Of a DNA stretch of 22,504 nucleotides, positions 1,231 through 16,159 are shown piece after piece. The DNA comes from a virus, in the IMG/VR virus record IMGVR_UViG_3300024346_000559, positions 1 through 22,504 of that record. One strand, 5' to 3'. The notes beneath the pieces were generated by a model. That model did no database searches. It was not told where the DNA came from and saw nothing but the letters and a program-made list of their open reading frames with translations. Position numbers and translations under genes: made by a program. How positions within the stretch are numbered: position 1 is the stretch's first letter; every line of letters begins with the position of its first letter.

Positions 1231-1920
1231 ATGGCATATAACTACATAGAATTAGTTAATGACGTTAATCGTAGACTTAACGAAGTAGAACTAGATGCTA
1301 ATAACTTTGGTACTGCTACGGGGTATTATAGTTTTGCTAAAAACTCCGTTAACGCAGCTATCCGTCATGTTAATCAAGAAGAAGTTGAGTGGCCCTGGAA
1401 TCATGCAGAGGAAATAGAAGTTCTTTCTGTAGGTGAAGTACGTTACAGTATGCCTTACGATAGTAAAACTATCAACATGAACACCTTTCGTGTCAAACGC
1501 AATGAGAGTTTTAATGTAAATACTGTGAAGTTAAAAGTACTAACTTATGAAGAATGGCTTGACAAACATGCCGATTCTGAGTATAACTCTACAACAAGTA
1601 CATTTGGTACACCTGAGTATGTTGTACGTACACCTAGCAGAGAACTTATCTTTTATCCTGCACCTGATAAAGAGTACGAAGTGGTGTATGAGTACTTCCG
1701 AACAGGGTTTGAATTAGAAAACAGTACGGACGTACCCACTCTCCCTGAGCAATACAGATACGCCATTGTAGATGGTGCTATGTACTATGTCTACCAGTTT
1801 CGTGGTGACACACAGGCCGCACAATTATCACTACAGAAGTTTGAACAAGGTATCAAACAACTACGTAGCTTACACATCAATCGCACAGAATACTTGCGAG
1901 ATACACGAGTACATTTCTAA
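1231..1920 (+). CDS. Head-tail adaptor, tail tubular protein A-like
   Basis: The 229-residue protein resembles the podovirus adaptor family (T7 gp11-type), which forms the ring between portal and nozzle. It opens with a helical segment (YIELVNDVNRRLNEVEL), followed by a WPW motif around residues 53-55, a beta-rich middle, and a C-terminal helical part with LPEQYRYAIVDGAMYYVYQF and a long amphipathic helix. This matches the helix-bundle plus beta layout of the family, and the length is close to the usual 190-230 residues. An AGGAG Shine-Dalgarno precedes the ATG. The TAA stop overlaps the next ATG by one base (TAATG), coupling it to the tail nozzle gene, its expected structural partner. The family call rests on pattern and context, not alignment. 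Confidence 0.75.
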   Translation: MAYNYIELVNDVNRRLNEVELDANNFGTATGYYSFAKNSVNAAIRHVNQEEVEWPWNHAEEIEVLSVGEVRYSMPYDSKTINMNTFRVKRNESFNVNTVKLKVLTYEEWLDKHADSEYNSTTSTFGTPEYVVRTPSRELIFYPAPDKEYEVVYEYFRTGFELENSTDVPTLPEQYRYAIVDGAMYYVYQFRGDTQAAQLSLQKFEQGIKQLRSLHINRTEYLRDTRVHF

Positions 1921-3602
1921 TGGCTACACAGTGGCAGACATTTCCTATAGAGTTTAATGGTGGGTTAATATCCAACCTAAGCCCTTTGCAGCAGGGTAGT
2001 AATGCCGTGGGTTCTGCTACTATACTACAGAACTTTGAAGCATCTAAGTTGGGTGGCTACGCTAAGCTAAAAGGTTACGAGAAGTACAGTACCACCCAAG
2101 TACCCGGCACTGGTCCCATACTAGGACTAAAGGTTATAAGCTCAGGACGTATTGTCGCCTCCCGTAAAAATGCTTCTAATAAAACTGAGTACTACTATAG
2201 TACAGGTAGTACATGGACAAGTATGGGTGAGTCTGCTCTTACTAATGGACTAAAAGCTAGAAGTGCTTTATACAATTTAGGGGTATCTGATAAAGTAATA
2301 TTTGTGGACGGTGTAAATTTTCCTATTATTTATAATACAGCAGGTAATACACTTTTAAAACTACAGAATACAGATTCAAATGCTGATGGTTATACAGGTA
2401 CAAATGATCCTCTGGGAGCAGAGCATGTAGTTATGTTTAAGAATAAAGCTTTTTATTCTAAGGGCAACACTCTATTTTATACTGTAACATCTAGTGTAGA
2501 CGATTTTAACACAGGTCTTGGTGCAGGTTTTATAGGTGTATCAGCAGATATTACAGGTCTAGCAGTATTTCGTAATCAACTTATTATATTTACGACCAAC
2601 ACTGTACAGAGTTTAACAGGAGAGACTTCTTCAAACTTTAAAGTTTCCCCTATTACAGAACGTATTGGTTGCATTAACGGTGACACTATCCAAGAATTTG
2701 GTGGTGACATTATGTACTTAGCTCCTGATGGTATCAGACTTTTAAGTGCAACAGATCGTATAGGTGACTTTGGTCTAGATATTGCATCAGATAAAATAGC
2801 TAAGGATAGTATACCTTTTCTAGGCAGTACTCCCATATTCTCCTCTGTAATTTTAAGGGAGAAGGGGCAGTATCGAATATTTGCATACGTAGAATCAGAA
2901 AAGACCAGTGTATCTAAAGGTCTCATAGCTACAAAATTTATATCTCAAGGTGGTTCTGGTGTTAATTGGTCTACTACCAAAGGCATAAAATCTTACATCT
3001 CTGATAGTCATTACACCAATACAGAAGAAACTGTCTCCTTTGCTAATAGTGATGGATATGTTTATATAATGGAAACAGGTGCTAGCTTCGACGGTGAAGC
3101 TATTGAGGCTATATACGAATCACCCTTTATGCCTGTAACAGATCCGCAAGTTCGTAAGTCTTTCTACAAGATGACTCTTTATGCCCAGCCTTCAGGTAAC
3201 ATGAGTCTAGATTTAAACGTAAAGTATAACTTTGCTTCTTCTTCGGACCTTACAACAGTGCAGCCTGAGACACAACAAATTGTTGGCACAGGTACCTCAG
3301 TGTTTATATATGGAGATTCGGAATCTTTATTTGCATCTTCAGATAGAGTAGCAGATAACTCAATTTTAGTATCACCTGCAGGGCCGTGGCTAACTTACCC
3401 AAACCAAGCTGGACCTTTTTATAATGAAGTTGGTGAAACATTTTCCCCCGCAACCTACGGTGGTGAACTAGATAGTATATACAATACAAATATTATTGGA
3501 TCAGGTAAGACAATAGCTATACGTATTGAAGATAATTCTACTAACCCCACATTTACTTTAGACACAGCCCTAATAGAGTTCGCTCAAGAAGACAGGCAAT
3601 AA
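1920..3602 (+). CDS. Tail nozzle protein, tail tubular protein B-like
   Basis: This 560-residue beta-rich protein starts with the pattern typical of podovirus nozzle proteins: a GGL segment, a loop, then LQNFEASKLGGYAKLKGYE (residues 37-55). Repeated beta-blade-like segments follow (for example GRIVASRKN, KVIFVDGVNF, VVMFKNKAFY, GLAVFRNQLIIFT), consistent with the beta-propeller and platform architecture of the T7 gp12 class. In the virion it would extend the tail below the adaptor and carry the fibres. It is coupled to the adaptor by a one-base TAATG overlap and followed after 9 nt by the tail fibre gene. There is no sign of enzymatic residues. Low similarity to T7 itself is normal for this class, so the assignment relies on fold pattern plus gene order. 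Confidence 0.75.
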   Translation: MATQWQTFPIEFNGGLISNLSPLQQGSNAVGSATILQNFEASKLGGYAKLKGYEKYSTTQVPGTGPILGLKVISSGRIVASRKNASNKTEYYYSTGSTWTSMGESALTNGLKARSALYNLGVSDKVIFVDGVNFPIIYNTAGNTLLKLQNTDSNADGYTGTNDPLGAEHVVMFKNKAFYSKGNTLFYTVTSSVDDFNTGLGAGFIGVSADITGLAVFRNQLIIFTTNTVQSLTGETSSNFKVSPITERIGCINGDTIQEFGGDIMYLAPDGIRLLSATDRIGDFGLDIASDKIAKDSIPFLGSTPIFSSVILREKGQYRIFAYVESEKTSVSKGLIATKFISQGGSGVNWSTTKGIKSYISDSHYTNTEETVSFANSDGYVYIMETGASFDGEAIEAIYESPFMPVTDPQVRKSFYKMTLYAQPSGNMSLDLNVKYNFASSSDLTTVQPETQQIVGTGTSVFIYGDSESLFASSDRVADNSILVSPAGPWLTYPNQAGPFYNEVGETFSPATYGGELDSIYNTNIIGSGKTIAIRIEDNSTNPTFTLDTALIEFAQEDRQ

Positions 3603-5687: not shown

Positions 5688-6863
5688 ATGATAAGTTTTG
5701 TAGAACATACTAAGCTAGGTAAAGTAAATAGTCGTGAATATATGTATGGGCAGGATGTACTTTATATCATAAATAATATTACCCCTAATTATTTTCCATC
5801 AGCACCCACAACTACTTTATCAGATGGTTATCTCTGGGGAGATATAGATTTAAACAATAGCATAAATCTTTCTGACCAACTAGATATTATTAAACACCAG
5901 ACAAACCTTCGTGTATATCAACCTGTAGATATAGACGGTAATACTGATACAGAAGGCCAGCACTTATTAGAGGCTATGCAAGTTGCAGGATCTACCTATG
6001 ATTGGCCCAGTAGCGCAGACAATGTTACTGGAGCATCTCCTGTTGATCTAGCTTATATCAAAAACACTCTAGGCATATCTGGAGAAATAGAATTTGCTAA
6101 GTTTTACTCTGGTCATAATAGTAGCTATGATACTATTGTTAATACTAAGGGAGGTAGTATAGCTGCCTTTCCTTCAACGTCTGCTTCTGAAGAGTTAAGT
6201 CTTAGGCATTTCTATGGTAAGCTTGCAGATAGTGGTTTAACTTATCTAGAAGATGATGGTCAGTTTAGTGGTAGTGTCACCTTAAATCCTGTAACAACAA
6301 TAACAAGTGACACAACGTGGTCTCCTACTACAGCAGGTACTTATGTATTTTTAATCTTTGATGGCGGTAGTTCTGGAAATATAAAACAAGATCCATCGTC
6401 ACCAAACTACACATATTGTGGTGGATCTGCAGGTAGCATGAAAGTAGCCTTCTCTAAACTAACCACAAACCAGACTTTTACAGTCACTATAGGAACAGGT
6501 GGTGCGGGTGTAAGTAGTAACGCACATGAGGTAGTAGAAGGTAACAAAGGTTCAATTAGCTCTATAGAGATTGTTAATTCCGTAGAGACAGGTATAGACT
6601 ATTTATCAGGTATGCAATTTGCTAAACACTCTGGTGTAGTAGGTGGAAATAGTAGCTCTTCTACTTATAATGGTACGTACTACGCTGGTGCTAAAGGTGA
6701 AGGTGTTACTGTAACTAATGGTGTAGCTAATGCATTCTTTTCTGGGGTAAATGGAAACTACGGGGATGGGTCTGAGGGTAAGGTATACGTAAATGCCACA
6801 CCAATAAGTGTTTCTACTAGTGCAGGGCAGGACGGTGCTGTAAAAATATATAAGGTAATATAA
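5688..6863 (+). CDS. Glycine-rich tail fibre/tip protein with dockerin-like loop
   Basis: The 391-residue protein has three visible parts. Residues 50-100 hold a dockerin-like calcium loop: D52-x-D54-x-N56-xxx-N60-xx-D63 followed by a helix (QLDIIKHQ), then a second partial loop D81-x-D83-x-N85-x-D87. The middle has SASEELSLRHFYGKLADSG. The C-terminal 180 residues form a glycine-rich beta region with FTVTIGTGGAG and repeated GxxG segments (GGSAG, GAKGEG, GVNGNYGDGSEG), like phage fibre-tip and glycine-rich domain proteins. It follows the long fibre after 12 nt with an AAGGAG Shine-Dalgarno, and its stop overlaps the next start (TAATG). Receptor recognition or fibre-tip adhesion is the likely role. 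Three hand-counted 60-nt samples give about 33% GC, less than the adjacent fibre shaft appears to have, which fits fast-evolving receptor-binding modules. Confidence 0.7.
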   Translation: MISFVEHTKLGKVNSREYMYGQDVLYIINNITPNYFPSAPTTTLSDGYLWGDIDLNNSINLSDQLDIIKHQTNLRVYQPVDIDGNTDTEGQHLLEAMQVAGSTYDWPSSADNVTGASPVDLAYIKNTLGISGEIEFAKFYSGHNSSYDTIVNTKGGSIAAFPSTSASEELSLRHFYGKLADSGLTYLEDDGQFSGSVTLNPVTTITSDTTWSPTTAGTYVFLIFDGGSSGNIKQDPSSPNYTYCGGSAGSMKVAFSKLTTNQTFTVTIGTGGAGVSSNAHEVVEGNKGSISSIEIVNSVETGIDYLSGMQFAKHSGVVGGNSSSSTYNGTYYAGAKGEGVTVTNGVANAFFSGVNGNYGDGSEGKVYVNATPISVSTSAGQDGAVKIYKVI

Positions 6864-7120
6864 TGTCTAACATAACATTAACAGCAGAAGAATTAGAATC
6901 TATGTTAGACCGTGCAGCTAAGCGTGGTGCTAAACAAGCTCTGTCATCTATTGGGTTGCACGATGAGACAGCTGCTAAAGATATTAATGAGATGAGAGAT
7001 TTACTTGATGTATGGCGTGATACTCGTAAGGGTATCTGGTCCACCTTTGTTAAGTTTACAACACTTGCCATCATAACATTTATTGCTGGTGCTGTCTGGA
7101 TGCAGCTGGGGAATAAGTAG
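6863..7120 (+). CDS. Small single-TM protein, DUF6127-like
   Basis: The 85-residue protein starts with MSNITLTAEELESMLDRAAKRG, then ALSSIGLHDETAAKDINEMRDLLDVWRD, and ends in one hydrophobic segment (about residues 60-81) followed by a short basic tail. This layout is that of short phage proteins I associate with DUF6127: an acidic/basic helix, a conserved GLHDExAAxDIxExRDLLxxWR block and a C-terminal membrane span. The function of that family is not established. A holin-like or accessory lysis role is possible because no other obvious holin is visible and the next gene also has one TM segment. It overlaps the upstream fibre gene by one base and is followed after 5 nt by the next gene. Confidence 0.7.
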   Translation: MSNITLTAEELESMLDRAAKRGAKQALSSIGLHDETAAKDINEMRDLLDVWRDTRKGIWSTFVKFTTLAIITFIAGAVWMQLGNK

Positions 7121-7125
7121 CTAAA

Positions 7126-7599
7126 GTGATTGATCCTTTTACAGCTATGGCTGCGGCTACTACAGCCTACAATGGTATCAAGAAAGCTGTATCTGTAGGT
7201 CGTGAAATCAGTGGTATGGCAGGGGCAGTATCTCAGTGGTCTAAGGCTGTTAGTGATCTAGACTTCTTGGAGGATAAAGCTAAGAACCCCCCTATGTACA
7301 AGATGTTTAGTGACAACCAATCTAACGCATTGGAAATATGGTCACAGAAACAGAAGCTCAAAGAAATGCGAGAGGAGCTTAAGAGCCACATTTCTTGGAC
7401 GTATGGCCCTAGCGCATGGGATGAGATAGTACGAATAGAAGCACAGCAACGTAAAGAACAACGTGAGCTAGTCTACAAGAAACAAGAGTTCATAGATAAC
7501 TGTATTAACTGGACTGTAGGTATTGCTGTAGCACTAGCAGGTATTGGGGCTTTAATAATAGTGATGTACTTCTTGGGTGTAAAGCAGGGTAAGTGGTAA
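7126..7599 (+). CDS. Coiled-coil protein with C-terminal TM (holin/spanin-like context), GTG start
   Basis: The 157-residue protein begins with a GTG codon 5 nt after the preceding TAG. The first residues, (M)IDPFTAMAAATTAYNGIKKA, are a familiar opening of a conserved marine-phage protein of unknown function. The middle is helical and charged, with a conserved-looking SWTYGPSAWDEIVRIEAQQRKEQ stretch (residues 90-112). A single strong membrane segment spans about residues 130-151, then a short positively charged tail GVKQGKW. The topology, a large soluble helical domain with a C-terminal anchor, suits a lysis-related or membrane-remodelling protein, but no family function is proven. The Shine-Dalgarno is weak, so coupling to the upstream gene probably drives translation. 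After it comes a 40-nt AT-rich gap. Confidence 0.7.
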   Translation: MIDPFTAMAAATTAYNGIKKAVSVGREISGMAGAVSQWSKAVSDLDFLEDKAKNPPMYKMFSDNQSNALEIWSQKQKLKEMREELKSHISWTYGPSAWDEIVRIEAQQRKEQRELVYKKQEFIDNCINWTVGIAVALAGIGALIIVMYFLGVKQGKW

Positions 7600-7604
7600 T
7601 TAAC

Positions 7605-7640
7605 TTGACTTTTTAACTTTTTTCAGTTAAACTATAGTAA
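7605..7640 (+). promoter_or_regulatory. Candidate promoter / leaderless start before the acyltransferase gene
   Basis: A TTGACT hexamer (7605-7610) is followed 18 nt later by TAAACT (7629-7634), with TATAGT just downstream at 7633-7638. Transcription from the first pair would begin at about 7640, on the ATG itself. The next gene has no purine-rich Shine-Dalgarno, which fits a leaderless message. TTTAACT (7612-7618) and AGTTAAA (7625-7631) could also form a weak AT-only hairpin. The hexamers are imperfect and the region is AT-rich, so chance matches are quite possible. Confidence 0.35.
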
Positions 7641-8062
7641 TGGAAATAGATAAGTATAAAGCACTTTCAGATAGTTTAGAACTTTTAAAGCAGAGTTATT
7701 GGCATAGAGTATACAATGTAGACGACATATATAGGTATATTATAGCACCTATAAAATACAACAAGATACGTCTTTACTATCAAGATCAAGTTCCAGTCGG
7801 CTTAGTTACTTGGTGCTGGCTCAATGAAAAGAACGGAAATAAATTTTTAAGTGGTGACTACTATATTACGGAGCAAGACTATACATCAGATTTAAATGAT
7901 GAGCTTTGGGGTATAGAATTTATTGCCCCCTATGGAAATGCCAGAGAAGTAATGAGACTAGTCCGTAAAGAACACACAAATGTATACAGTAAAAATAAAA
8001 AAATACATTGGCGAAGATTGCAAAAACCTAGTAAAAGACATACAAGAGAGTTTAAAAAATGA
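7640..8062 (+). CDS. HlyC-like toxin-activating lysine acyltransferase
   Basis: The 140-residue protein matches the RTX-toxin acyltransferase family (HlyC/ApxC), which moves a fatty acyl group from acyl carrier protein to internal lysines. Against E. coli HlyC recalled from memory, SYWHRVYNVDDI aligns with SPLHRNWPVSLF, VPVGLVTWCWLN with YPVAYCSWANLS, QDYTS with EDWTS, and WGIEFIAPYGN with WFIDWIAPFGD. His22 occupies the place of catalytic His23. The catalytic Asp92 of HlyC is replaced by Glu93. It is about 30 residues shorter than HlyC at the C terminus, which ends basic (KRHTREFKK). No Shine-Dalgarno precedes the ATG and no other in-frame start is available. Its TGA overlaps the next ATG (ATGA), coupling it to the 675-aa virion protein. 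No RTX toxin is visible in the window, so the substrate is unknown; a co-encoded virion or membrane protein is the natural candidate. Confidence 0.8.
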   Translation: MEIDKYKALSDSLELLKQSYWHRVYNVDDIYRYIIAPIKYNKIRLYYQDQVPVGLVTWCWLNEKNGNKFLSGDYYITEQDYTSDLNDELWGIEFIAPYGNAREVMRLVRKEHTNVYSKNKKIHWRRLQKPSKRHTREFKK

Positions 8063-10086
8063 TCTATAACCCCTTCATGATTGATCGGCATCTAAATCCT
8101 AGAGCATCTGGGCTTATAGTCTTTGGTGGTGGTGATGGGGGTAGTGCTCCGTATCAGTACTCGGAGGGTGGTACTGTAGATGCAGGCAATGAACCGCAAA
8201 GTAATCAGGACAAGTTTTCTGTTTTTACAAATGCTATTAACGCAGCTAACAATCAAGCGGATGAGGGATCTGCAGATAAAATTGGTCAGCTGGGAATAAA
8301 ACTACAGGCTTTACAGGCAGTAGCTATACCAGCATTTGATGGTGCCGATGCTGCATCTTTCGTACAAAGAGCCGAAGAATACAAAGCGTCTAAGGTAAAA
8401 ACAGTAAGCGACAATTTAGCTAAAGCTCAGAGCCAGCGTTCAGCAGAGATGTCCTCTGGTGCACGAGAGGTGACTGGTGCTGCTGTGACAGACCCAGGTT
8501 CACAGGCTAAAAAGTCTGATGTTGTTGATATTGAAGCAGGTACTGAAGGTACATCTGTTTCGCAAGACACCGGGCAAGTAACAGGTCCAGCACCCTCTGT
8601 AGATGCCACCAAAGTAGATTCAGTTTCTACAGTCGAGACACCCAAAGAGATAACTGCAAGTGGAGTAACTGCTTCTACAACAGGGTCTAAGGTAACTGAC
8701 GCTGTTCAGGATCTTGATGCTCAAGAAGGTGAAGTGTCTGCAGATTCTATAGCCAAGGGTGCTACGAAAGACCCAGCTTCCACGGGTGTAAGTGATCTTA
8801 AAGAAGCTCAGGGTACCGCCACTATGGTGGATAACCCGGCACAGCGTAAGATCCAAGAGGGTGAACTTATTTCCGGTGTCGCTGATGCTGAAACAGCCAG
8901 TAAGTTTACTGAGCAAATACAAGCGGCTACTGCAACTCCATCTGAAAAAGCTACAGTTAGAGGGCAGCTGACAGACCTCATGCAGGACTTTGAAGGGGGC
9001 AACACTCCATCTTGGGCTGCGGGTGCTATGAGGGCTGCTATGTCACAGATGGCTTCCCGTGGCCTTAGTGCATCCTCAATGGCTGGACAGGCTATTGTAC
9101 AGGCTACCATGGAATCTGCACTTCCTATTGCTATGGCAGATGCTCAAACTCAATCCCAGTTTGAATCTCAGAACTTGTCAAACAGACAGCAACGTGCTAT
9201 GCTTGCCGCACAACAACGTGCTACCTTTATGGGTATGGAGTTTGATCAAGCCTTCCAAGCAAGAGTTCAAAATGCATCTAAGATTTCTGATGTAGCTAAT
9301 ATGAACTTTACTGCTGAACAACAAATTGCACTTGAGAACTCTCGTGCTTCAAATACTATGAGCTTAGCTAATTTATCTAACAGTCAGGCAATGGTGATGG
9401 CCCAAGCTGCAGCTATCTCCCAGCTAGAATCGCAAAACTTATCCAATCAGCAGCAAGCTGCAATTCAAAATGCACAAGCATTCTTGCAAATGGATATGGC
9501 TAATCTTAGTAATAGGCAACAAACAGAAATGTTTAAGGCTCAGACTATCGCTCAGTCTATCTTTACAGATTCAGCTGCTGAGAATGCTGCAAGACAATTT
9601 AATGCTTCGTCAGAAAATCAAACCAAACAATTTATGGCTAGTCTCTTTACGCAAGTTAGTCAATTTAATTCGTCACAGATTAATGCAACGAATCAGTTTA
9701 ATGCTGGTCAAGACAATGCTGCACAACAATTTAACGCCAGTATTGAAAATCAACGTCAGCAATTTAATGCACAAAACTCTTTGGTAATTGCTCAGGCTAA
9801 TGCTCAGTGGAGACAAAACGTATCTACAATTAATACAGCTGCACAGAATGAGTCTAACGCTAATGTAGCAATGGCGTCTAATGCGTTTACCCAGTCTATT
9901 ATGGATCAACTGTGGCAACGTGAAAGAGACATCATGGATTACGTTTACAAGTCTTCCGAGTCAAGTAAAGATCGTTCACTTAGTATTCTCCTTGCGGATA
10001 AAAAATATGATGAGTATCAAACAGCCAGAGATGATGCAGAAGAAACTTCCAAATGGGCAGCGTTTACACGGATACTCTTCTCTTAA
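8059..10086 (+). CDS. Internal virion-type protein with 11-residue (hendecad) repeats
   Basis: The 675-residue protein has an N-terminal glycine-rich patch (GLIVFGGGDGG, residues 19-29), an acidic and disordered-looking Thr/Ser/Ala/Val region (about 130-270), a helical region with LMQDFEGGNTPSWAAGAMRAA (about 308-328), and a Gln/Asn/Ala-rich half made of 11-residue repeats (372-602). It ends with a charged segment (about 610-675). I do not recognise a named family, though Q/N/A-rich virion proteins are frequent in marine phages. The absence of enzyme motifs and the position between fibre and large internal proteins suggest a virion core or ejection protein. Translation is coupled to the acyltransferase by a 4-nt ATGA overlap. 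Met7 is an alternative start, but the overlap favours 8059. Confidence 0.7.
   Translation: MIYNPFMIDRHLNPRASGLIVFGGGDGGSAPYQYSEGGTVDAGNEPQSNQDKFSVFTNAINAANNQADEGSADKIGQLGIKLQALQAVAIPAFDGADAASFVQRAEEYKASKVKTVSDNLAKAQSQRSAEMSSGAREVTGAAVTDPGSQAKKSDVVDIEAGTEGTSVSQDTGQVTGPAPSVDATKVDSVSTVETPKEITASGVTASTTGSKVTDAVQDLDAQEGEVSADSIAKGATKDPASTGVSDLKEAQGTATMVDNPAQRKIQEGELISGVADAETASKFTEQIQAATATPSEKATVRGQLTDLMQDFEGGNTPSWAAGAMRAAMSQMASRGLSASSMAGQAIVQATMESALPIAMADAQTQSQFESQNLSNRQQRAMLAAQQRATFMGMEFDQAFQARVQNASKISDVANMNFTAEQQIALENSRASNTMSLANLSNSQAMVMAQAAAISQLESQNLSNQQQAAIQNAQAFLQMDMANLSNRQQTEMFKAQTIAQSIFTDSAAENAARQFNASSENQTKQFMASLFTQVSQFNSSQINATNQFNAGQDNAAQQFNASIENQRQQFNAQNSLVIAQANAQWRQNVSTINTAAQNESNANVAMASNAFTQSIMDQLWQRERDIMDYVYKSSESSKDRSLSILLADKKYDEYQTARDDAEETSKWAAFTRILFS
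9172..9864 (+). repeat. 21 in-register 11-residue repeats (33-nt periodicity)
   Basis: Residues 372-602 of the 675-aa protein divide, without a single insertion or deletion, into 21 units of 11 residues. Examples are NLSNRQQRAML, NFTAEQQIALE, NLSNSQAMVMA, NLSNQQQAAIQ, NLSNRQQTEMF, NASSENQTKQF, NSSQINATNQF, NAGQDNAAQQF and NASIENQRQQF. Asn is favoured at position 1, and hydrophobic or aromatic residues recur at positions 10-11 of each unit. This is the hendecad period of three helical turns. The DNA copies are diverged, so the repeat is a protein-level architecture, not a recent tandem expansion. Confidence 0.85.
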
Positions 10087-10101: not shown

Positions 10102-10857
10102 ATGGCAGCAAACTATACAAACCTATTACTTACAGCTAGGCAACAGGCTGATCAGAGATTAGCTTCTAAGGGACTAGCTGGTAGTTCTTTTCAAAGCGTT
10201 GATGAAAATGATTCCGATAGACTTTTGCCTAAATCTCTTGTAAGTAAAAGACCTGAGGTGCTACAAGCTAGTGCTGAAGAAGATGATTTTATGACAAAAT
10301 ATTTTACACGGCTACGAGAGCAAAACAAAAACCTTGTAGAGGAAGGTAGTTCTACCAGGGCTTTGACTGATGAGTCTGGGGAGACTGTAGATATTCTAAA
10401 TGAGGGTGACGATGTAGATAGTCCCTCTGTTCAATCTGCTGAAGACTTCATTGCTGGTTTTGAAAATGTAAAGAATCAAAAAACTTTTAAAGCTTACTGG
10501 GATGTAGATCACTGGGCAATCGGATTTGGAAGCAAGGCCAGTGGAGAAAATGAAACTATAACCTTACAGCAAGCAAGGGATAGACTCAGTAGAGATACCT
10601 CTAAGTTTAGAGATATTGTAGTATCTGCAGCAAAGCAGTATGGATACGACTGGGACTCCAATCAGATCACAGCACTTACCAGCTTTACATACAACCTAGG
10701 TGCAGGGAACCTAAATAAACTGCTGGATGGCGGTAGTCGTGGTGATGAAGAGATATCTAATATGATTCTTGAATACAATAAAGCTTCTGGTAAAGTTTTG
10801 CCAGGGCTTGTAAAAAGACGTAAAGCCGAGGCTGCTTTATTTTCTAGTGTGAATTAA
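10102..10857 (+). CDS. GH24-type lysozyme (muramidase) with N-terminal extension
   Basis: The C-terminal 140 residues of this 251-aa protein fit phage muramidases (GH24), which cleave the glycan strands of peptidoglycan. Visible blocks are DFIAGFE (residues 115-121), KAYWDVDHWAIGFGS (130-144), QITALTSFTYNLGAGNL (188-204) and the typical C-terminal LPGLVKRRKAEAALF (233-247). Glu121 and Asp134 would be the catalytic acids, but they are 13 apart instead of the usual 9, and the expected Thr before IG(F)G is Ala139. The first 110 residues are acidic, with no signal peptide or SAR segment. The N-terminal extension and the position among internal virion genes suggest a virion-associated enzyme used at entry, although it is also the only lysozyme in the window and could serve as endolysin. 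AGGAAA precedes the ATG. Confidence 0.8.
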   Translation: MAANYTNLLLTARQQADQRLASKGLAGSSFQSVDENDSDRLLPKSLVSKRPEVLQASAEEDDFMTKYFTRLREQNKNLVEEGSSTRALTDESGETVDILNEGDDVDSPSVQSAEDFIAGFENVKNQKTFKAYWDVDHWAIGFGSKASGENETITLQQARDRLSRDTSKFRDIVVSAAKQYGYDWDSNQITALTSFTYNLGAGNLNKLLDGGSRGDEEISNMILEYNKASGKVLPGLVKRRKAEAALFSSVN

Positions 10858-10867
10858 GGAGTAGGCT

Positions 10868-11398
10868 ATGTTTAGTGCACCAATACCGGGACAGTCCCTA
10901 ACATCAGAACCCAAGAACTCTCCTTGGGAAAATCCATCTCAGTTTGCAGACCCTGAGTCAGCACTACTTTGGCACATGGATAGGCTAGAAAAGCCTGAAA
11001 AAATTAAGGCTGTGGCGGGGTTACTTAAACTGGGGATAGATGTAGTAACTCTTACAGAGGGATTACTCAGGTCAGCTGTAATTGAAGGTCGTCACTCTGT
11101 TGATGTCTCTCTCATTATTGGTCCAATTATACATGAGTATATTGTAGGCACTGCGGATGCGGCTGGACTAGAGTATAAGGAAGGTTTAGATGAAGATTCT
11201 GCAGAGGAAATTGATGTAAATTATACTATAAGATCTAGGGAAGCGGCTAAAATTTTAAAAGAACTTAAGGATACTGGAGAAGTAGATTTTGATATGGAGC
11301 CAGAAGAGAGCTTAAAAGAACCTATCAAAATACCAGAAGAAGTTGAAGCTCCTGTTGAAGATAAACCTATGGGCTTGATGTCAAGAGGAGAAGTATAA
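10868..11398 (+). CDS. Conserved phage virion-type protein of unknown function
   Basis: The 176-residue protein opens with MFSAPIPGQSLTSEPKNSPWENP, a motif I recognise from conserved proteins of unknown function in many marine podo- and myoviruses. Two helical, hydrophobic blocks follow (KIKAVAGLLKLGIDVVTLTEGLL and HSVDVSLIIGPIIHEYIVGTADAAGLEYKEGL). The C-terminal third is acidic and probably disordered, rich in Glu, Pro and Lys. An AAGGAG Shine-Dalgarno sits 10 nt after the lysozyme stop. The TAA overlaps the next ATG by one base, linking it to the 346-aa protein. Its place in the internal-protein block suggests a virion or assembly role; no reaction can be proposed. Confidence 0.7.
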   Translation: MFSAPIPGQSLTSEPKNSPWENPSQFADPESALLWHMDRLEKPEKIKAVAGLLKLGIDVVTLTEGLLRSAVIEGRHSVDVSLIIGPIIHEYIVGTADAAGLEYKEGLDEDSAEEIDVNYTIRSREAAKILKELKDTGEVDFDMEPEESLKEPIKIPEEVEAPVEDKPMGLMSRGEV

Positions 11399-12439: not shown

Positions 12440-15400
12440 ATGGAAGAAGAATACGAAGATGTGCTCAGTCTTAGTGATGGTAGTCCCGAGATAACAGTCC
12501 CTTTAGGTACAGAGGAATATGAAGATCCTCTTTCACTGAGTGGGCAGGCTGATTCAATGACAGAGCTACCACTTTCGAAATCTTCTGCAAATTCTTTGGA
12601 AGTTTCCTTAGGTGCAGACGTAGTAGATTTAGACTCTGTTTTTCAGGAGTACGGTCGCTCATTAATTAAAGAAGATTTTCTTAAAGACGACAGGCTTATG
12701 GAGGTTGTCTATCAAAACCTAGAGGCTAGGTATCAACCTTCTGGTGTAGTTGGAACAGTCTATAGTGGAGTATCCGGTATAGCAGGTGGTGACACTGGTG
12801 GTGGCGCATTTGGTCCAAGAGACTATAGGGCTATGGGTAGGGAGGATGCCTTTGAGATATGGCAGAATTATCAGAGATCATTTGCTGGTGGTCAAAGTGT
12901 AACTACGGCTAACGAAATTGCTTTTGGGATATCTGCAGACCAAACTACTAAAAATAAATTGGGTGCAGGTTATCTGCTATTTGATCAGATGGGTAACGCC
13001 TTTACAGGAGAAGGTTCTTGGTCTGAAATGGGCGATGCTATTTACGACTATGGTAAAGCGGCCATCTACGATCCGACAACAATTCTTTCTTTTGGTTTAG
13101 GTAAGATCCTTACCTTTGGTGCAACTAAGGCGTCAAGTATTACTGCTAGGTCTTTGTTAATAAAAGGTTTTCAAGAGTATGTAAAGCAGGGTATGTCTAA
13201 GACAGCTGCACGTATTGCAGTGGGTAAGGCTGTGACAAAAGCAGCACCTGTTGTTGCTGCTGAAGCTGTATTTAACGTGGGTTTTGACGCACTTTATCAG
13301 GCGCAGTTAATTAATACTGATGCACAGGAAGAGTTTAGTTTTACTCAGTCTGCAGTAAATGCTGCAGGTTCTATTCTTATGCCAGCAGTATTGTTTGGCA
13401 CGAGTGCAACTGTTAAAGGACTTAGACGTTCTGATTTTTTAAAAGATACTTGGATAGGTTCAAAAGAATTAGACGTAGCTGCGCTCAAGATGGATGCAGC
13501 CACTGCTTTAGCTGAGTCTAAAAAACGTATCAAGAATAAACAACTTATTGATATTGTAGATGAAAACTTTAGTCGAATTGCTGGCGGTGATTCCGGTTTC
13601 TTGGCTTGGCAAACTGTTAAAGCTAAAGCAAAATCTGCCATTGCTAGGAAGCAAGAGGTAGACACAGACACAGAAACCATGAATATTTTTATGAAAAATT
13701 TTTGGTTTGGTGCTAAAGATGGTAGCACTAAGGGGTATTATCAGGCACTAAAAGATGCTGGGTTTGTTACAACTCCTGCCATGATAGATGAGTATAAAGT
13801 TACAGGTACTTTTGCTCAGACTATTATGTTCTTAAAACCAAACACAGTAAAAAACATGATGACTTCTTTTGAAAAAGAGACAGGGCGTAAGTTAAAAATT
13901 AAAAAAACACCAGCAGGTCTAAGAGATCATATGATTAAGGGAACTTCTGTTGGTGCAGAAACCCTTCAGATTTCTTCACAACTATCTCGATTAGAGAAAT
14001 TAGGTGGGGCAGATCTTTCCAAAGCGCTGAAGAATATGGGCAAAGGTAAGATGCCCGATGACCCTAAGAAATTGCAGTTTGCTTTGTCTGTATACAAGAG
14101 ACTGATAACCTCACACCTATCTACAACTGGTGCTAACATCAAAGGTTTTGGACAGCTTGTAAGTTTAAACACTGCAGCTGACATATTTACAAGTGCAATT
14201 AACTATACCATAGCTGGTGGTGCAAAATTAACAGGTAAATCTGACACTGCAGAAATGTATGCCAATAGGGGCTATGGCTCTCTACTTGGTGCGCTTCGTC
14301 GTGGTGCATCCGTACTATCACCAGAGTTAGATTACAAGTATGCACAAAAGATTTTAGAGTTAAACCCCAAGACAGCTGAAACTTTATTTAGGGATGTCAG
14401 TGGTGATGGTGGTGTAAGAGATAGTCTAGAGCACTTTAACCTTGATGCTAAAGGTAAGGTAAATTCTGAAGGTGAGGTAATAAATCCTGATGCAACATTA
14501 GATCCCAGAAGTCCTACATATGTTATTGCTAAGGGTGCAGATACTGTAACCAAGGGTGCTCAAACAATAACACTTGTAAGAATGCAAGACGAAGTTACTA
14601 AAACTTGGTCATTCGGTACAAATGTAAATCAAGCTATTATGAGAGAGTATGGAACACCCCCACAGAAATTTTTTGATAGGCCTGATGCTGCACTTGAAAT
14701 GGCAACAGACAGGTTTAAAAATAACGTGCTTGAGAAAGCTGCCTTTAGAACTATGCGAGAGACTGCTTCAGTAAACTGGTCTACACTACCAGCTAACAAT
14801 GCTTTCAGAGCAGCGGCAAGATTTATTGAAACAATAACAAACAAAACTCCGGTCGGTTTTATTGTGCCTTTCGGTAGTTTTTTAAATACAACCGTGGCTA
14901 CTATGGGAGATCTATCTGGTTTTAATGCCATAAGATTTACTCTTGAAAGATACCGAGGTAAAAAACTTGACTTCGCAACTCAGGAAGTTGCTGAATCTTA
15001 TGGTCGTATGGCCGCTGGTTGGACTGCTGTAGCTCTGGGTACGTACACCGCAGGTGGTGCAATAGATAGAGTTAAAGAAGGTCTTGCTTGGAATCAAGAA
15101 AGAAAAGATGATGGCTCTGTTCAAGATAACAGATTTGATTGGCCCTTCTCTACCATAAGAGTTGTTGAGCAAATGTTAGCTCATGGTACAAAGGGTAACC
15201 CAGAGATTTTAAAAGGACTTAAAGGATTTTCTTGGGATGAAGTTCCAGATGACCTTTGGGAAGAACTTAGAAACCAGCTTGGAGGCCAATCAGTACGTGA
15301 TCTAAAAGATTTTGAAAGAAACTTATTTGAATATGGCAATGCACTTCTTGAAGTAAAGGAGTCTAAACTTATAACAGGTGATTGGGTTGGGTCTGGTTTA

Positions 15401-16159
15401 AGCAAAGTCGTAGAGTTTACGGAGGATCTAATATTTCCACCTACATCTAGAATACTGCAGGGTGCGACGAGACCTCTTGATCCTGTGAATCAGATGTGGG
15501 GTTTAGTAACTGATAAAAATATGTCTCCCGATCTTAGGCAAGGGCCAGAAAAATATAACAGTGCTATTAAATACGTAAATAATTTATTCGATAGTATGGG
15601 GTTACCCTCTTCAACCGACCTGCCCAGAAGAGCTATGCCTACACGAGCGACAGACTTACAGGTAGATTCGGGTAAACAGATATTAGGTGTACGTGGTTCC
15701 CGTGAACCTAACACAATAGAAGCAATGTTAAACTCTGCTGGTATGTCTGCTTGGAGGTCTATTAAATTTGATGGTCCTGCTGAAGTAAAAAACTACATGG
15801 ATACTATGGTTGCACCATATCTAGAAAATGCAGCACGTAAATACCTAAAGGGAAACCCTGAGTTTTTTAAACTTAATCAGGGTGAGAAAGAAAGAATCAT
15901 TCAATCTATAATAGAAACGGCAAAAGATGGCGTAACAAATGCAATTCAAAGCAGTCCAATCCCTCGTAACTTAGAGATGGTACGTGTACTCTCCGGTAAA
16001 AACAAAGATAAAGTAAAACGTGTTATGGAATTTATGGGGATTGAAGGAGAGTTAGAGGACATACTAAAAAAGGAGGATGCATTAAACACCCTCCGTAAAA
16101 TTGACATGCTTGTAGAAAACTACGACAAGATATTCTTTGGAGACTTGGAGTTAGACTAA
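12440..16159 (+). CDS. Large internal virion (DNA-ejection type) protein
   Basis: At 1239 residues this is the largest gene, and it is the last of the virion arm, the place occupied by the large T7 gp16-like ejection protein in many podoviruses. The N terminus is acidic. Ala/Gly-rich and amphipathic helical stretches follow (for example ILSFGLGKILTFGATKASSI near residues 215-235), then a segment ETITNKTPVGFIVPFGSFLN (about 796-815) typical of large internal proteins in marine podoviruses, and a mildly hydrophobic AAGWTAVALGTYTAGGAI near 855-875. No lytic transglycosylase motif is visible, which fits the separate lysozyme gene upstream. GGAAG precedes the ATG. It would be expelled at infection to form a conduit through the envelope. 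Function is inferred from size, position and composition. Confidence 0.75.
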   Translation: MEEEYEDVLSLSDGSPEITVPLGTEEYEDPLSLSGQADSMTELPLSKSSANSLEVSLGADVVDLDSVFQEYGRSLIKEDFLKDDRLMEVVYQNLEARYQPSGVVGTVYSGVSGIAGGDTGGGAFGPRDYRAMGREDAFEIWQNYQRSFAGGQSVTTANEIAFGISADQTTKNKLGAGYLLFDQMGNAFTGEGSWSEMGDAIYDYGKAAIYDPTTILSFGLGKILTFGATKASSITARSLLIKGFQEYVKQGMSKTAARIAVGKAVTKAAPVVAAEAVFNVGFDALYQAQLINTDAQEEFSFTQSAVNAAGSILMPAVLFGTSATVKGLRRSDFLKDTWIGSKELDVAALKMDAATALAESKKRIKNKQLIDIVDENFSRIAGGDSGFLAWQTVKAKAKSAIARKQEVDTDTETMNIFMKNFWFGAKDGSTKGYYQALKDAGFVTTPAMIDEYKVTGTFAQTIMFLKPNTVKNMMTSFEKETGRKLKIKKTPAGLRDHMIKGTSVGAETLQISSQLSRLEKLGGADLSKALKNMGKGKMPDDPKKLQFALSVYKRLITSHLSTTGANIKGFGQLVSLNTAADIFTSAINYTIAGGAKLTGKSDTAEMYANRGYGSLLGALRRGASVLSPELDYKYAQKILELNPKTAETLFRDVSGDGGVRDSLEHFNLDAKGKVNSEGEVINPDATLDPRSPTYVIAKGADTVTKGAQTITLVRMQDEVTKTWSFGTNVNQAIMREYGTPPQKFFDRPDAALEMATDRFKNNVLEKAAFRTMRETASVNWSTLPANNAFRAAARFIETITNKTPVGFIVPFGSFLNTTVATMGDLSGFNAIRFTLERYRGKKLDFATQEVAESYGRMAAGWTAVALGTYTAGGAIDRVKEGLAWNQERKDDGSVQDNRFDWPFSTIRVVEQMLAHGTKGNPEILKGLKGFSWDEVPDDLWEELRNQLGGQSVRDLKDFERNLFEYGNALLEVKESKLITGDWVGSGLSKVVEFTEDLIFPPTSRILQGATRPLDPVNQMWGLVTDKNMSPDLRQGPEKYNSAIKYVNNLFDSMGLPSSTDLPRRAMPTRATDLQVDSGKQILGVRGSREPNTIEAMLNSAGMSAWRSIKFDGPAEVKNYMDTMVAPYLENAARKYLKGNPEFFKLNQGEKERIIQSIIETAKDGVTNAIQSSPIPRNLEMVRVLSGKNKDKVKRVMEFMGIEGELEDILKKEDALNTLRKIDMLVENYDKIFFGDLELD

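Follow-up and report, generated by a model that had tools for sequence, protein, structure and literature searches.

Internal virion or ejection proteins of the T7 gp16 type carry a murein-cutting domain, and in modular endolysins the catalytic domains are exchanged in nature. Phages of the HMO-2011 type form a group that is present in many marine data sets. The modular domain organisation of endolysins has been described, e.g., for phages of bacilli in a passage of PMC11674121, and a passage of PMC2976769 unites the families GH19, GH23, and GH24 in one lysozyme superfamily. For the endolysin family, the motif Glu(X)8(Asp/Cys)(X)5Thr, with spacings of 9 and 6, is given for all published structures in a passage of PMC8228626, which also names Glu64, Asp73, and Thr79 as the catalytic set of AcLys. 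The lysozyme-like endolysin of the Burkholderia phage AP3 departs from this set, as it is without the catalytic Asp according to an excerpt of PMC5674055.

The locus described here lies on a stretch of viral DNA of 22,504 nucleotides (the window), which matched CRP-345, CRP-13, CRP-9, CRP-207, and CRP-603 with a like gene order. CRP-13 in turn matched HMO-2011, and the gene order of the window is thus of the HMO-2011 type, a name that is also applied to the module of CRP-9 and CRP-13 in a passage of PMC8528129. The gene under study is an intact open reading frame with an ATG start, and its place between two bordering genes is called the slot. The following features were assigned:

8059-10086 (+): Ala/Gln/Asn-rich protein of 675 aa, left border of the slot, resembling internal virion proteins in position and composition
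10102-10857 (+): slot protein of 251 aa, N-terminal handle plus predicted GH24-fold domain (open reading frame, Pfam, PHROG)
10102-10386 (+): conserved handle, residues 1-95, end approximate (phmmer with the N-terminal 105 aa, shuffled control, AF2)
10387-10437 (+): linker, residues 96-112 (low confidence in the AF2 model)
10438-10854 (+): predicted GH24-fold domain, residues 113-251, start approximate (Pfam, PHROG, AF2, structural alignment)
10868-11398 (+): 'PIPGQSLT' protein of 176 aa, right border of the slot (alignment A4, anchor of the survey)
12440-16159 (+): protein of 1239 aa, ejection-protein-like by position only (homologues in CRP-9, CRP-207, and CRP-603)

The slot protein is probably the variable wall-cutter of the HMO-2011-type morphogenesis module, which would combine a conserved handle with a GH24-fold muramidase for entry and whose catalytic domain would be swapped. 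The 675-aa protein at the left border had no match in Pfam or PHROG, and by eye a similar gene was found left of the slot in the related loci L002, L003, L004, L005, L058, L059, and L244. Further upstream, an open reading frame of 140 aa in the late-gene block (7640-8062, +) belongs to the HlyC/RTX toxin acyltransferase family (PF02794, 7.5e-20) and also matched phrog_20210, a family of unknown function; by title or start of the abstract, the literature searched reported no phage-encoded HlyC/RTX acyltransferase genes. A DUF6127 protein (6863-7120, +), also present in CRP-603, and a protein of 157 aa (7126-7599, +; phrog_32327) each have by eye a C-terminal hydrophobic stretch and are possibly membrane or lysis-related. 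The product of 1920-3602 (+) matched phrog_5107 'amidase' (1.8e-36) over most of its length, together with structural-protein families, and the amidase label is doubtful.

The C-terminal part of the slot protein belongs to a well-known family. PF00959 (Phage_lysozyme) matched residues 130-243 with 4.5e-19 and 69.5 bits, the curated cut-off being 22.3 bits, and the endolysin family PHROG_7 matched residues 112-248 with 9.6e-28. The homology to GH24 lysozymes is far above chance. In the AF2 model (16 sequences) residues 113-248 were mostly confident, residues 121-130 were weaker, and residues 1-110 were poor except for two helices. The comparison with the lysozymes of T4 and P22, which the preliminary description had proposed, was performed with the domain model, and VIA-align Z values of 17.0 with PHAb11 (9kbs), 16.8 with SpmX (6h9d), 14.7 with P22 lysozyme (2anv), and 11.8 with T4 lysozyme were obtained. 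A GH24 lysozyme fold is thus predicted, and the view that the fold signature is otherwise intact is in line with Pfam, PHROG, and the structural scores; the placement of Glu121, Asp134, and Ala139 comes from sequence alignment.

In fold (Z 16.3-17.0, 37-41% identity in the structural alignment) and in the catalytic Glu and Asp, the domain is similar to GH24 lysozymes of Acinetobacter phages and prophages (PHAb10, 9kbq; PHAb11, 9kbs; AcLys, 6et6). In contrast to these enzymes, which have the standard spacing and the Thr, the window protein has an insert, a shorter hairpin, an Ala, and the handle. A second likeness concerns GH24 domains in tape measure proteins (Caulobacter phage C1, Agrobacterium phage JP1, Ruegeria phage V18) and in ejection-type proteins (Vibrio phage D530, Shewanella phage phiY2), which share a virion-type context by annotation, a hairpin shorter by one residue, and a replaced Thr (by Arg or Ser in their case). 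Their domain forms part of a long protein, whereas the window has a separate, exchangeable gene. With the T7 gp16 type the slot protein shares the place among internal virion genes and a probable role in entry; however, the cutter is a separate protein of about 250 aa, and the 1239-aa neighbour had no match in Pfam or PHROG and hence no cutting domain by either.

The N-terminal extension of 110 residues, which had merely been listed in the preliminary description, is indeed present ahead of the GH24-fold domain, and it is more informative than the active site. By eye it contains neither a signal nor an anchor sequence. The handle has no known fold, and its AF2 model is poor (pTM 0.28), with helices predicted for residues 2-22 and about 58-86, the second including EEDDFMTKYFTRLREQNK. 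A phmmer search with the N-terminal 105 aa of the window protein matched L222, L220, L217, L230, and others that have other C-terminal classes, and the best match was L222 (8.1e-17), the C-terminus of which is an SLT domain (2.5e-11). Of 76 N-terminal parts, 47 were joined in a single cluster (E<1e-3), and of the 192 links, 125 connected different C-terminal classes; shuffled N-termini (73 shuffled queries against the 76 sequences) yielded 2, 1, 0, 1, and 0 hits. The 29 N-termini outside the main cluster include those of the GH24 slot proteins L003, L274, and L005 and of the isolates CRP-9, CRP-13, and CRP-345. Among related marine phages, the cutting half of this modular protein is swapped, and the extension is the half that stays constant.

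For a survey of the slot the PIPGQSLT protein was used as anchor, and the best 80 of 584 loci were taken, 77 of which had an open reading frame left of the anchor (69 distinct). The C-terminal parts of these 69 sequences fell into 10 classes at E<1e-5. The Pfam set comprised 68 rows, i.e., 64 of the 77 survey rows (63 of the 69 distinct ones and one duplicate) as well as the window, L002, L003, and L005; left out were L267, L268, L269, L280, L289, and L293. In L269, L289, and L293 the open reading frame of the survey encodes a membrane protein, and a further protein lies left of each. A small membrane protein of phrog_38283, a family of unknown function, which is possibly a holin, is encoded directly left of the PIPGQSLT gene in L269 (2112-2552), L289, and L293 and as CRP-2 gp47, CRP-603 gp47, and CRP-207 gp42. 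Within the 68 rows, in which one protein can count twice, PF18013 (tail lysozyme) was found 24 times, PF00959 (GH24) 12 times, SLT 10 times, GH19 5 times, Hydrolase_2 (cell wall hydrolase) and Transglycosylas 2 times each, and SLT_4 once. Because GH19, GH23, and GH24 have a common superfamily, the slot enzymes are different rather than wholly unrelated. The named phages differ as well: the slot of CRP-13 holds a tail-lysozyme/SLT-type domain near the cut-offs, that of CRP-9 an endolysin-like domain of another class, and that of CRP-603 a cell wall hydrolase. No recognisable cutting domain was present in the slots of CRP-345 (68 aa), HMO-2011 (no annotated gene), and L244-246, where a handle-only protein of 100 aa is encoded, indicating that the enzyme is dispensable in some lineages. 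CRP-2 gp48 (L300:4975-5898) is a slot protein of 307 aa without a Pfam match, and its C-terminal half may be another wall-cutting domain.

The exchange could be followed at the DNA level in pairs of closely related loci. L262, which has a PF18013 domain (7.2e-20), and L266, which has a GH24 domain (2.2e-23), are 80.6% identical up to base 308 of the slot gene, do not match in the catalytic part, and are 86.7% identical from about the stop codon onwards. L231 and L232 share 94.1% over 1784 bases up to base 283 and then 94.0% from about the stop codon; L231 has a GH19 domain (1.5e-11), and the domain of L232 is below the cut-offs (PF18013 5.5e-5, SLT 0.0011). The same pattern was found for L285/L295 and L264/L270 (PF18013 versus GH24), and the window and L222 share 69.5% up to base 50 and then 70.9% behind the gene. 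An assembly error is an unlikely source of these differences, because the paired contigs are named for different data sets and the isolates differ likewise. The catalytic domain is thus an exchangeable cassette, bordered on one side within the handle or linker and on the other near the stop codon.

It is somewhat probable that HMO-2011-type phages possess a dedicated exchange locus for virion wall-cutting enzymes, in which the constant handle and the flanks would serve as homology arms and at least six kinds of domain (10 sequence classes) would be swapped between close relatives, presumably matching changing peptidoglycan or envelope defences of the hosts; the GH24 domain of the window would be a Thr-less variant that has arisen more than once. 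The combination of catalytic domains with other domains is a likeness to modular endolysins, but the part that is kept here is a handle without a known wall-binding domain, encoded in a virion gene block. Modular lysins are already known, and the slot is a new variant within them. By title or start of the abstract, no description of the slot was found in literature on virion lysozymes with Thr26, on domain exchange of virion lysins, or on HMO-2011 lysis, and it is absent from the text passages of PMC8528129, PMC10149686, PMC12629253, and PMC9038755. A passage of PMC12629253 mentions holin and endolysin genes in CRP-822-type phages, which are another group.

At which end of the infection cycle the enzyme acts was approached through the other wall-cutting genes of 19 related records. 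Outside the slot, Peptidase_M15_4 matched in 11 of the 19 at E<=0.001, five of the matches being over the cut-off, and one of the 11 records (G013) has a GH24 slot; an M15 gene is present in CRP-13, too. The five were read as open reading frames of 144-156 aa with SxHxxGxAvDL and HFE, a pattern that we take to be that of M15 endolysins, so that a separate M15-type peptidase gene is probably the endolysin in five related genomes. When GH24, PF18013, SLT, and Hydrolase_2 were searched in the whole records, these families occurred once per record and at the slot, except that G004 has a further GH24 gene far away from its slot and CRP-345 a free Hydrolase_2. Amidase_2 was found in 0 of the 19 records, and a search of the 19 for GH108 gave no match, with the controls likewise silent.

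These data bear on the alternative that the slot protein is itself the endolysin, which would be released via a holin at the end of infection and would act outside the particle. We consider this unlikely for the window. M15-type genes lie far from the slot in the 11 records mentioned, including one with a GH24 slot, and by eye one of the five M15 open reading frames has a holin-like and another a spanin-like open reading frame nearby; G004 has its second GH24 gene; and the handle is encoded among virion genes and is kept without a cutting domain in L244-246. On the other side, several slot proteins match PHROG families labelled endolysin, the two window genes at 6863-7120 and 7126-7599 have the hydrophobic C-terminal stretches seen by eye, and in CRP-2, CRP-207, CRP-603, L269, L289, and L293 the genes of the slot protein and the PIPGQSLT protein are separated by one for a holin-like membrane protein, which in at least CRP-603 directly adjoins the gene of the protein with the cutting domain. 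Among the 53 of 77 annotated CRP-603 proteins that were scanned, the slot protein carries the sole wall-cutting Pfam domain, and a PHROG scan of the same 53 proteins revealed one labelled 'amidase', a doubtful label. M15 gave no match in 8 of the 19 records, among them CRP-207 and CRP-603. Because of the holin-like neighbour and the missing M15 match, the slot enzyme in the branch of CRP-207 and CRP-603 may be the endolysin or may serve both ends. That no endolysin of its own was seen in the window is due to the window being a fragment.

With the M15 genes elsewhere and the handle-only proteins of L244-246 set against the holin-like neighbours of the slot, we infer, as the favoured reading rather than as a result, that the window's protein is borne by the particle. 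The handle of about 95 residues would tie it to the particle or to the internal or ejection proteins encoded around it, and the protein would be delivered on infection. The GH24-fold domain would then cut the peptidoglycan locally and thereby allow DNA entry. The glycan strand would most likely be cut with Glu121 as the acid and Asp134 as the base, which would position and activate a water molecule, and Ala139 would remove a helper hydroxyl, a change that, judged by the sequences, has arisen more than once.

The active site was read directly in the open reading frame as F-E121-NVKNQKTFKAYW-D134-VDHW-A139-I-GFG. The distance of 13 residues between Glu121 and Asp134, instead of 9, had been noted before and is found here; Asp134 and Ala139 are 5 residues apart, so that the motif is Glu(X)12Asp(X)4Ala, which differs from the canonical GH24 motif. 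The hairpin from Asp to Ala is thus also one residue short, a feature absent from the preliminary description. The positions are:

10462-10464 (+): Glu121, general acid by alignment (invariant in alignments A1 and A2)
10465-10491 (+): stretch 122-130, which holds the 4-residue insert between Glu and hairpin (alignment with L003, L004, and L005; insert also in L002)
10501-10503 (+): Asp134, catalytic Asp by alignment (invariant in alignments A1 and A2)
10516-10518 (+): Ala139, at the GH24 Thr position by alignment (the slot relatives L266 and L270 read TIGFG here)

In the AF2 model Glu121 lies just behind the helix of residues 113-118 (local mean pLDDT 73), i.e., where the first helix of the domain ends. 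The Pfam match starts behind Glu121, which agrees with an insertion at that point. L002 (73%) keeps Glu, Asp, and Ala and shares the insert; L003 and L004 read FEGYREKAYWDVDHWAIGYG, which has the standard Glu-Asp spacing and the same Ala as the window; and in L005, which reads DVDHWRVGYG, Arg takes the Thr position. As standard spacing and Ala occur together in L003 and L004, the insert behind Glu and the short hairpin with the loss of Thr are two separate changes. Judged by the alignments, the odd Glu-Asp spacing is a loop insertion of four residues, Glu121 and Asp134 are at the positions of the catalytic pair, and Ala139 is at the position of the GH24 Thr, as had been proposed. The preliminary description had offered either a divergent virion-borne muramidase or an enzyme with other residues. 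The former is the favoured reading, based on the gene context, the conserved handle, and the M15-type genes of several relatives; the latter finds no support, since Glu121 and Asp134 align with the catalytic pair and only Thr is replaced, as in several lineages. The AP3 endolysin also departs from the catalytic set, but it loses the Asp, whereas the window protein keeps the Asp and loses the Thr.

To judge how unusual this variant is, relatives were fetched with bait A3, which consists only of the part behind the active site and therefore did not select for the motif itself (at least 80 viral and at least 80 cellular loci). The canonical span with Thr was present in 121 of 157 parsed GH24-type loci among the 160 matches listed, as counted with a motif parser that tests length and Thr, not Asp/Cys, and that anchored a wrong Glu in L061, L091, L124, L159, and L191 and missed L070, L095, and L146. 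Among the matches listed, Glu and Asp are by eye 17 residues apart in seven (L156, L182, L183, L189, L197, L207, L214), and different insertions are seen in L105 and L200. Of the proteins encoded in the slot, L295 also has a spacing of 13 and L229 one of 12 (inserts of 4 and 3 residues). The 13-residue spacing is thus uncommon, not singular.

The short hairpin occurs with Thr in L058, L059, L065, L066, L068, L163, and L211; with Ser in L060, L062, L063, L064, L075, and L191 as well as in the ejection-type proteins L012 and L013; with Ala in L076 and the group of the window; and with Arg in a number of tape measure proteins from named phages. Among the slot proteins, the third position is occupied by Thr in L263, L265, L266, L270, and L273, Ser in L229 and L295, Ala in the window, L002, L003, and L274 (the contig of L004), and Arg in L005. 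In a quick tree of 69 rows with SH-aLRT support only and two long branches, Ala needs 4 changes and the Arg group 2, indicating that Thr was replaced repeatedly while Glu and Asp stayed. An Ala unique to the window was therefore rejected, and the active site represents a mild variant that has recurred. The Arg-bearing sequences (D-V-N-A-[YWF]-R) form a GH24 subgroup in tape measure and other long phage proteins (L045-L051, L053), which clusters together with L005 and its relatives; a literature search on GH24 in tape measure proteins combined with Thr found no papers. It was also considered whether an Asp or Asn two residues behind Asp134 substitutes for Thr, as nearly all Ala and Arg types read D-V-[DN], yet exceptions exist: L263 and L265 combine D-[VI]-N with Thr, D-V-D goes with Ser in L019, and the Ala of L076 is accompanied by D-Q-R.

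The loss of Thr could also have changed the chemistry, turning the protein into a retaining enzyme or a lytic transglycosylase with Glu121 as the main catalyst. The exchange Thr26His converts T4 lysozyme from an inverting into a retaining enzyme (passage of PMC2976769), Ala has arisen more than once, and a separate Arg-bearing clade exists in tape measure proteins. However, Asp is kept in every member of A1 and A2, lambda-type enzymes are listed without a general base in a table of that paper, and Ser and Thr serve in the same slot, which makes such a change rather improbable. A degenerate GH24 fold that binds peptidoglycan without cutting is more improbable still: the SpmX muramidase domain, which is re-used with weakened activity, is among the closest structures (6h9d, Z 16.8), but Glu and Asp are conserved here, and the other domains found in the slot come from various wall-cutting families. 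A canonical Glu-Asp-Thr set elsewhere in the fold, to which the failure of the Glu-Asp spacing to fit the motif might point, is barely conceivable, as Glu121 and Asp134 align with invariant residues of relatives that keep the 9-residue spacing. That the unusual spacing marks another catalytic set was rejected, because other GH24 proteins have inserts there as well.

Since the GH24 members of the slot have Thr, Ser, Ala, or Arg at the third catalytic position, what this residue contributes can be tested on natural proteins. If the reading as an exchangeable, virion-borne wall-cutter is true, names could be given to 'hypothetical proteins' encoded at this place in marine phage genomes. One slot would then provide matched natural phages whose main difference is the wall-cutting enzyme, and the effects on entry, lysis, and host range would be directly testable.
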